Assembly: GCA_026196875.1 (NCBI GenBank)
Contig: JAPHTP010000083.1
Span: 1-64,000 of the forward strand
Direction of reading: 5' to 3'
Length of the DNA: 64,000 bases
Source of the DNA: Kangiellaceae bacterium
GTDB lineage: Bacteria > Pseudomonadota > Gammaproteobacteria > Enterobacterales > Kangiellaceae
This document shows positions 53,421 to 61,831 of this stretch, in pieces. Made by a program: the position numbers and the translations under genes. The notes under the pieces are model-generated. The model did not search any database. It saw only the letters and a list, made by a program, of their open reading frames with translations, and had not been told where the DNA came from. Positions within the stretch are counted from its first letter, which is position 1. Each line of letters begins with the position of its first letter.

Positions 53421-53550
53421 AGTCTTAATCCTGGGGATTTTTGGAGATAGAAGCTTAAGGGTAATCTAAATGTTTATTGGGGAATTTTCAAATGAATTTG
53501 GGTTTCAATTTATTTTTGTGAACTATTTATTGAGTTTGAATTTAGGGTTT

Positions 53551-54051
53551 GTTTCGCAACGCTTCGCTTGCGCTCGTTAAATTTTTGTGTCTATCCGATG
53601 GCTCATGATTTCCACGAGTCCGTTATAGCCGCTAGGCGGCCATTAATTTCGCTTTCCTTTTCTTTTATTAGCTTTTAAGAATACGGATAATTTGAAACTA
53701 AATTGATGCTTAACTTACTCTAATAAGCTGAGCGGATTTAATACTCATTCAACTTTGAGCTTTCTTTTTTCTTAACACTAAAAAAGTAAAACACAAAACT
53801 TTAAGATCGGGTGCCCAGCGGCTATAACGGGCTTGTGGAATGCATGACACATCAAAAAAAGCAGAACAATTGTTTGAGCGGAGCGAGTTTTGTTCTGCCT
53901 GATGTGTCGATTTCAAGTTGAGACAGCCAGTGAAGGCTTGTATAACCAACCAAATGAATATGAATTAGTTATTTTCAGCGAAAAAGCCCTTTTGGTTCCT
54001 TTTGGGGCTTTGGCCAAAAGGAACTCGCACGCAAGCGAAGCGGTGCGAAAC
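53551..54051. repeat. Non-coding element of nested inverted repeats, about 500 bp
   Basis: The ends are a 22-bp inverted repeat (53551-53572 and 54030-54051) with 21 of 22 matches. Inside, a 26-bp inverted repeat (53612-53637 and 53813-53838) matches at 23 of 26. Further in, GACACATC/GATGTGTC (53846-53853, 53901-53908) encloses GCAGAACAA/TTGTTCTGC (53861-53869, 53890-53898), and GTTCCTTTTGG/CCAAAAGGAAC (53995-54005, 54014-54024) is a perfect 11-bp hairpin. The only frame, 66 codons on the minus strand at 53749-53949, runs through the hairpin and looks spurious. A mobile non-autonomous element or a structured RNA is possible. Confidence 0.65.
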
Positions 54052-54069
54052 AAGAAAAATCGTACTTAA

Positions 54070-54174
54070 CTATACTATAGCCTTCCCAATCATCTCTGGA
54101 TGCTGACCACACCGATAATCAAACTCCTTTTCTCTATCAAAGAACTTCTAAAAAATCTCATCCGGAAAAACAAT
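54070..54174 (-). pseudogene. Decayed C-terminal fragment of a cupredoxin gene
   Basis: On the minus strand the frame reads FPDEIF-stop-KFFDREKEFDYRCG, then QHPEMIGKAIV and a stop. It matches the C-terminus of the cupredoxin encoded at 61484-61831 (FPDETFDKLFD, EFDYRCGPHPEMIG) at about 23 of 32 positions, including the copper ligands Cys, His and Met. A TAG at 54148-54150 interrupts it and the upstream part is missing. It sits directly between the inverted-repeat element and the next gene. Confidence 0.8.
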
Positions 54175-54182
54175 TTAATTGG

Positions 54183-54995
54183 CTAAGCGTTATTCCCTCT
54201 GCCAAATATCTCCTTGAATCTTCTAATCCGCTGGTCCAGGACTTCCTTACGCACTTGGTATTCCGGGTCGTGAACTCGATCTTGGAGGAGTGAGTCAGCA
54301 AGTTCTTCGTTACGTCCAAACTCAACCACAAAAAAGACAGAGAATCTTCGCACCCATGGATCCGGATGGTGTTTAGCCGCCCATGCTAGCACCTCGACCG
54401 TTTCGTGGCCCTGCCCCGGCATCCAGGCCAAAGTGTACGGAATGTAGCTCTTTGTTCCTTCTTCAGCGGATGTTATCAATGCTTCATAAAGCGCATTTTG
54501 AATGTCGGGAAGATGCTCCTTTGCGTCTTTCCAAAACTGGTTCCTTTTGTCCGCAAAACCGCTCTCTTCATGATGAGTCAACTTAACATTCAAAGAGCCA
54601 AATGCGGAGGCCACTTTGACGCGTTGTATTTTCTGAGGATGAGTGAACAATCGTAGAAGCACGTCTGGCGATTTACCATCCAGAATAGCTTTGAGTACCA
54701 ACCTTTCGTCATTGGAGAAGTCCATACTCTGCCTCCAGGATTCAGATTTTTCAACTACTGAATCGTCGACGTGTCCGCCGTCGGTTCCTGACTCCCTCAG
54801 TGGAGGAGACGCGGCTAAATGGTCTAATTCAGCTGCATGCCGTTCGACAAACGCGGGTGGATCATCGAAAACCACCGGACTCGCATTCAACCCTGCCAAT
54901 GTATGGACGAAAAAGCCGGCGACGGCCATTGCAATAACGGCTGTTACGATGATTAATTTTTTATATGTAGAACTGATTTTCATGATTTTATTCAT
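54183..54995 (-). CDS. Hypothetical membrane-anchored HEAT-like protein
   Basis: The 270-residue protein has an N-terminal signal anchor (about 12-35) and a helical periplasmic part. From about 95 on, repeated helix pairs (LVLKAILDGKSPDVLLRLF, DPWVRRFSVFFVVEFG, DPEYQVRKEVLDQRI) suggest HEAT-like repeats. No family is recognised. Its coding sequence is visibly richer in G+C than its neighbours, and it is next to the inverted-repeat element and a cupredoxin fragment, so recent transfer is likely. No good ribosome site is seen before either ATG (54995 or 54983). Confidence 0.62.
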   Translation of the reverse strand: MNKIMKISSTYKKLIIVTAVIAMAVAGFFVHTLAGLNASPVVFDDPPAFVERHAAELDHLAASPPLRESGTDGGHVDDSVVEKSESWRQSMDFSNDERLVLKAILDGKSPDVLLRLFTHPQKIQRVKVASAFGSLNVKLTHHEESGFADKRNQFWKDAKEHLPDIQNALYEALITSAEEGTKSYIPYTLAWMPGQGHETVEVLAWAAKHHPDPWVRRFSVFFVVEFGRNEELADSLLQDRVHDPEYQVRKEVLDQRIRRFKEIFGRGNNA

Positions 54996-61483: not shown

Positions 61484-61831
61484 TTATTTTACAATAACTC
61501 TCCCAATCATCTCGGGATGAGGCCCACACCGATAATCAAACTCCCCTACCTTATCAAACAACTTATCAAACGTCTCGTCGGGAAAAATATAGTCCGACTC
61601 TTCCTCACCATATTTTTCAAAAAACACACTGTGATATTGACGCTTCTCTTTGTTCACCCACCGAATAGTTTGCCCCTTTTTAATCTCAATCACTTCCGGC
61701 ACAAACTTAAACTTAATCATGGTCACTTCTACCACATCCGCTTCGCTTTTTTCTGTCGCTTCTTTATTCCCATTAAATGCGCATGCGGTAAAGCTGATGA
61801 CTAGAGAAAACACTACAAGTAATTTTTTCAT
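61484..61831 (-). CDS. Cupredoxin (plastocyanin-like) lipoprotein
   Basis: The 115-residue protein has a lipoprotein signal (FTAC, Cys17) and a blue-copper fold: VVEVTMIKFKFVPEVIEIKKGQ split over two strands, W58 in TIRWVN, and copper ligands H67 (RQYHSVFF), C102, H105 and M108 (FDYRCGPHPEMIG). It would serve as a small electron carrier in the periplasm. It lies 290 bases downstream of a NapC/NirT-type multiheme protein on the same strand, although a terminator separates them. A decayed copy of its C-terminus is at 54070-54174. Confidence 0.9.
   Translation of the reverse strand: MKKLLVVFSLVISFTACAFNGNKEATEKSEADVVEVTMIKFKFVPEVIEIKKGQTIRWVNKEKRQYHSVFFEKYGEEESDYIFPDETFDKLFDKVGEFDYRCGPHPEMIGRVIVK

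Follow-up and report, generated by a model that had tools for sequence, protein, structure and literature searches.

The window analyzed here is a 64,000-nucleotide stretch of a contig from a Kangiellaceae bacterium. Toward its end lies a region of about 500 bp (Table 1) that no open reading frame of at least 80 amino acids overlapped, in agreement with a first-pass annotation that had described it as being without a gene. The same annotation had placed a pseudogene and a compositionally distinct gene beside the region. The former was confirmed as the C-terminal remnant of a cupredoxin-like gene, while the latter proved only mildly distinct, with a GC content of 0.46-0.48 compared with about 0.40. 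The remnant lacks its start and shares approximately 80% identity with an intact paralogue elsewhere in the window, for which the label "cupredoxin-like" is a reading of the translation.

Table 1. Features of the element copy in the window and of its neighbors (positions of the window).
Feature	Positions	Strand	Remarks
Outer inverted ends	53549-53572 and 54030-54053		24 nt, 96% complementary
Left outer arm (hairpin A of left end)	53549-53572	-	hairpin B absent here
Remnant of reverse-strand centre module	53566-53641	-	profile hit 53639-53525, minus strand
Inner inverted pair	left arm 53597-53637; right arm 53813-53853	left arm +	34 of 41 matching
AT-rich spacer	53642-53810	no strand
Centre module	53811-53918	+	AGCGGCTATAACGG..TTGTGGAATGCATGA, then hairpin C; alignment A2, 20 copies
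Hairpin C	53846-53908	+	outer stem, 5' bulge, inner stem, tip
Arms of hairpin C (two-stage bulged hairpin)	53846-53867 with 53887-53908
Conserved tip TGTTTGAGCGGAGCGAG	53871-53887	+	mini-hairpin GCGGAGC at 53878-53884
Hairpin B of right end	53995-54024	+	perfect 11 bp, 53995-54005 with 54014-54024
Hairpin A of right end	54025-54048	+	loop holds mini-hairpin GCGAAGC, 54035-54041
Right outer arm	54030-54053	+
Cupredoxin-like pseudogene remnant	54073-54170	-	C-terminal part
Mildly distinct gene	54183-54995
Intact cupredoxin-like paralogue	61484-61831

The outer inverted ends (initially given as 22 bp with 21 matching), the two-stage bulged hairpin, and the perfect 11-bp hairpin were all present. 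A second inverted pair was present as well, and it exceeded the length of 26 bp (23 matching) first given for it. The suggestion that this order is not due to chance also held: the best ungapped inverted pair matched at 21 of 22 positions, compared with 14-16 of 22 in 24 other 703-nt stretches drawn from the window and scored as controls. Additionally, the fold energy was about 9 standard deviations below that of dinucleotide shuffles, both as DNA (plus strand) and as RNA (both strands).

Across copies, the general plan comprises two inverted ends around a centre module. Each end includes a hairpin B of 10-11 bp and a hairpin A of the form TCGC...GCGAAA. The centre module is composed of a conserved lead (AGCGGCTATAACGG..TTGTGGAATGCATGA in the window's genus) and hairpin C, whose outer and inner stems are separated by a 5' bulge and which carries the tip TGTTTGAGCGNAGCGAG. 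Among 32 hand-listed end pairs (31 distinct; ends lacking a partner in the list were excluded), the paired ends spanned 292-802 bp, mostly near 470-560. The flanks of some copies extend the inverted repeat beyond this core, so that the true edges differ between subfamilies.

In the window copy, no left end was called by the end model R1, which was built from 45 ends. The left hairpin B is missing because a second centre module, present as a remnant, is joined to the left outer arm within the shared mini-hairpin motif GCAAGCGA. Judged from its sequence, the copy is a damaged chimera, with the right half intact and the left half truncated inside this motif, and its inner inverted pair is two centre modules placed face to face. 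A fusion of the same kind was found in another copy of the same genome (L062, contig C39). Other copies of the same genome matched the spacer only partially (C88 from query 212; C54 to query 185). A coding reading was rejected, as spurious frames matched no curated family and gave a single sub-threshold Pfam hit. For genome annotation, this serves as a warning that these repeats yield non-genic open reading frames.

Copies, intergenic sites, and the search for a transposase

The element is dispersed rather than single-copy. Relatives were found in 11 other places of the window's genome (contigs C129, C56, C39, C76, C54 with two, C64, C88, C116, C57, and C32, where those of C57 and C32 are short pieces), which makes the window copy one of about a dozen dispersed copies and fragments. 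In the same genome, R1 had 17 matches at E<=1 and 15 at E<=0.001. DNA matches were found in 12 of the 41 genomes among relatives, and R1 matches (E<=0.001) in 36 of 274 genomes in a sample of the class Gammaproteobacteria, both counts including the window's genome. The genome G152 contained 11 full-length copies that were 88-93% alike. In G001 (L090, L091, and L092), the element occurred in tandem arrays that repeat approximately every 467 bp, constant linker included, which suggests an amplification via unequal exchange or rolling replication.

Two intergenic sites were found occupied in some genomes and bare in others. At the cpoB-queE site, which holds the C56 copy, the element was present in G000 and G005, and seven of the nine genomes read had none in this interval (G001, G002, G003, G004, G006, G011, and G012). 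Similarly, the elbB-glpE site of the C64 copy was occupied in G000 and bare in G001, G004, G005, and G006. These gene names, and argH below, were read from translations without a family search. At cpoB-queE, the element of G005 is oriented opposite to the C56 copy (L325 against L061), and beside argH the elements of G152 and G268 also have opposite orientations (L479 against L136). Such differences at two orthologous sites hint at an inversion in place. The occupied sites could be ancestral and the bare ones losses. The cpoB-queE interval of G004 (L329, G004:C2:661650-662250) contains a short tandem repeat of CTAAGGG-type units. As for the window copy, its neighbors were not syntenic in the relatives, and no exact empty site was obtained.

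Target duplications, which the first-pass annotation had proposed as a check and which belong to the criteria for a miniature inverted-repeat element (MITE), were not observed. None was detected among the 11 near-identical copies of G152, which provided crisp edges, and none of at least 3 nt was found in 29 elements elsewhere (30 were listed, one of which had no anchor and was dropped), where a weak 2-nt signal was present.

Genes of the Y1 transposase family (Pfam accession PF01797) were found in 31 of the 41 relatives, whether or not these carry the element, and in 17 of the 20 genomes bearing the element or its tip. The family was absent from G112, which has 26 tip copies, and from G183 and G268, while G032 contained only a broken gene. 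A significant end match was located near only one of 60 Y1 loci (L363, 370-1530, G192:C317), where a GTAG-REP transposase gene (REPtron) lies between two element ends and appears to have been inserted into an element copy. These results weakened the case for a Y1/RAYT transposase as the mover, which had been considered seriously. The recurrent genes near 83 loop hits were only housekeeping- and transporter-like, and no autonomous partner element was found in a transposase search that covered Y1 only.

Stem covariation, the folded strand, and the conserved tip

Stem conservation, on which the first-pass annotation had made its proposal depend, was borne out: the stems covary, changing by compensatory substitution while the tips stay constant. 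Among the ends, 98.3% of 720 cells were paired, and 92 double-change cells were observed, compared with 27 for shuffles and no more than 15 for slid controls. The corresponding numbers for hairpin C were 68, 22, and at most 35. Since both alignments were compiled from sequence hits and themselves provided the structure, the slid controls are also biased in favor of it. Templated repair can also yield compensatory changes in long inverted repeats without selection.

The mini-hairpin of the tip covaried as well. Over 20 rows it was 97.5% paired, with a change from G-C to A-T in two and from C-G to G-C in four, and the mini-hairpin of hairpin A was 96.7% paired with one double change. The tip TGTTTGAGCGNAGCGAG contains the motif GCGNAGC, the N of which was A in 69, C in 53, T in 33, and G in 11 of 166 distinct tips at the loci analyzed, and tetraloop variants of the tip included GTAA, GTGA, and GATA. 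A GNA or GNNA loop on at least two pairs was found in the window copy and in most rows of the alignments A1 and A2; the exceptions were chiefly GCAAAGC, in eight of 45 end rows, and also included some broken rows of both alignments. Tandem sheared G.A pairs could be contributed to the tip by the flanking GA...GA.

Mismatches within the stems were asymmetrical. Isolated G.T and T.G pairs exceeded A.C and C.A pairs by 83 to 18 in the stems of hairpin C and by 37 to 5 in all ends. Of the latter, the 78 distinct ends that belong to the genus and family of the window gave 18 to 5, and the 54 other ends gave 19 to 0, a ratio to which the model's own preference may contribute. In both DNA and RNA, a G.T pair is more stable than an A.C pair. 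As the stems accept G.T much more readily than A.C, and a duplex cruciform would be symmetrical, one strand is indicated as the folded one. When the ends were separated by direction, the ratio was 8 to 0 for those pointing against the centre module and 5 to 3 for those pointing with it, both being small numbers. Each end thus seems to fold on its outward-reading strand, and hence the two ends on opposite strands, which is hard to reconcile with a single transcript. The orientation of the loop relative to GC skew gave no clear preference, at 46 versus 37.

A scan of named genome records identified the tip in at least 115 stretches. The taxa among the 80 matches listed included Desulfuromonadales, Methylophaga, Lachnospiraceae, Selenomonas, Bacteroides, Sphingobacterium, Flammeovirga, Aquificaceae, Ralstonia, and a candidate Vogelbacteria genome, among others. 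For 76 distinct tip hits among the matches listed, the complementarity of the flanks was above the 99th percentile of cross-locus flanks in 50 and above that of shuffled flanks in 63. The cross-locus control was passed by 126 of 166 tips in a wider set, which includes the window's genus and is therefore not independent. In a phylum sample of 398 genomes, the tip was present in 18, and the reversed tip pattern had no match among the matches listed. In other phyla the same tip was found on unrelated stems. Two-hairpin ends are documented solely for the window's class, the one in which they were sought. The distant tips may represent the same element or merely the same type of hairpin.

Carriage by phages or plasmids was rejected, as no DNA match was found in a plasmid collection (two queries) or a phage collection (one query). 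The loop pattern occurred in 100 stretches of a viral collection, a number judged to be little above chance by an estimate made without a control. One viral contig (L423, 4147-4283) contains three tip copies with a spacing of 60 nt. In different bacteria (L218, L235, and L249), a tip hairpin is located 235-298 nt from a glutaminyl-tRNA synthetase-like gene, a proximity that may be due to chance.

Explanations for the element

The window very likely includes a copy of a dispersed element that is built of hairpin modules and conserved in its tip. Among the options named in the first-pass annotation, a non-autonomous transposable element fitted best, being favored by the dispersed relatives, the lack of coding capacity, the inverted ends, and the empty sites in relatives, but neither a target duplication nor a transposase was found to accompany it. 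In the main reading, rated at about even odds (a probability of roughly 0.5), the stretch is a left-damaged copy of a non-autonomous, mobile-type hairpin element of 0.3-0.8 kb, which would be recognized as folded single-stranded DNA and mobilized in trans. Recognition of each hairpin would take place when its outward-reading strand is unpaired with its complement, such as at a replication fork, and would depend on the shape of the hairpin and its GNA/GNNA mini-hairpin tip rather than on the sequence of its stem. A putative host enzyme, provided in trans and similar in its action to a REP or IS200-type single-strand transposase, would copy or move the element into intergenic DNA without target duplication, and exchange at shared mini-hairpin motifs would give rise to chimeras such as the window copy. 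A broader version, tentative and rather doubtful, is a new multi-phylum superfamily of mobile or selfish bacterial elements that is recognized as folded single-stranded DNA by a tip in which tandem G.A lies beside a GNA mini-hairpin, with drifting stems and an enzyme other than Y1.

Action as RNA, through transcript hairpins or a small RNA with the dispersed copies as by-products, would agree with the preference of G.T wobbles over A.C, with the strong RNA folds, and with the transcription of QMITE1 copies in Coxiella (PMC5896051). It is nevertheless unlikely, and the structured RNA gene of the first-pass annotation was disfavored: the window had no match in Rfam 15 at gathering scores (sub-threshold ones were mostly to plant-type microRNA models), promoter-like sites were not in excess (one, compared with 1.6 in shuffles), and the genes flanking loop hits had no consistent sense direction. 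Furthermore, each of the inverted ends seemingly tolerates G.T on its own outward strand (small counts), and the GATA tetraloops among the tips fit GNNA but not GNRA.

A constant tip of 17-22 nt over phyla with differing stems, together with the asymmetry of G.T and A.C, is what a passive palindrome fails to explain. Under that explanation, which appears improbable, the copies would be old repeats spread by recombination, the stems of which are kept by templated (quasi-palindrome) mutation without any recognizer. It is consistent with the absence of an enzyme and of target duplications from the searches above, and with several elements in which the two arms of one copy were, by eye, more alike than different copies were. 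The location of the copies, largely between genes and frequently close to gene 3' ends (neighbors pointed toward the hairpin in 41 of 60 cases on the left and 32 of 57 on the right), would suit sites that organize the chromosome or bind proteins such as gyrase, IHF, or polymerase, in the manner of BIMEs, and that spread by their usefulness. The patchy occurrence of the loop in the phylum sample argues against such sites, which are a very unlikely explanation.

Comparison with known systems

The element resembles REP, REPIN, and BIME sequences in being intergenic and dispersed, in its inverted hairpin pairs, and in its preference for the 3' ends of genes. Loops of the GCGNAGC type are also found among the enterobacterial REPs in Table 1 of Nunvar 2010 (PMC2817692), where some of them carry it. 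In contrast to these sequences, which are mobilized by RAYT/TnpA-REP, the element is modular and much longer, spanning 292-802 bp where a REP unit has 20-40 bp. The GTAG/GTGG or CGTC tag was found at the foot of none of 45 hairpins B and none of 20 hairpins C; it occurred at the foot of hairpin A in six of 45, where in the rows inspected it was the 3' arm of hairpin B. Unlike REPs, the element does not flank RAYT genes, and it occurs where no Y1 transposase was found. The sole RAYT associated with it has GTAG repeats of its own. The TIRtrons, or TIRYT repeats (Di Nocera 2013, PMC3733652), share with the element long inverted repeats that lack REP tags and occur in families, but they flank a tyrosine transposase gene, and no copy of the element was found to do so in the arrangement usual for them.

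As in a MITE, the element is short, non-coding, bounded by terminal inverted repeats, and present in many copies. The MITE QMITE1 of Coxiella burnetii is 0.3-0.4 kb in length, lacks a transposase gene, is multi-copy, and has terminal inverted repeats and a strong fold, according to PMC5896051. It differs in its direct repeats of 2-3 nt, compared with the weak 2-base signal of the element, and the stems of the element vary in sequence while its tips are fixed. A 77-bp repeat of Porphyromonas was rejected as a relative, as it looked unrelated (PMC3969353). Searches of the open-access literature with tip and end strings and keywords returned nothing relevant beyond REP, RAYT, and MITE papers, and within this literature the element is provisionally regarded as undescribed. 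It works like a REPIN or a MITE but departs from them in the tag, the RAYT gene, and the target duplication.

The tip itself has a counterpart in DNA chemistry. Extraordinarily stable DNA mini-hairpins are formed by GNA and GNNA loops that are closed by two or more G-C pairs, according to a source on the work of Hirao and colleagues (PMC4686876). These d(GCGNAGC)/GNNA mini-hairpins have the same loop and stem as the element tip, with the N position free. They are known there as a physical DNA structure. No paper in the open-access literature searched treated d(GCGNAGC) as a conserved tip in a family of repeats. Should the tip be a device for the recognition of folded single-stranded DNA, this would account for a large class of hairpin repeats in intergenic DNA that lack REP tags and RAYT genes, would point to a new DNA-processing enzyme common to distant bacteria, and would give a test-tube DNA structure a natural and widespread use.
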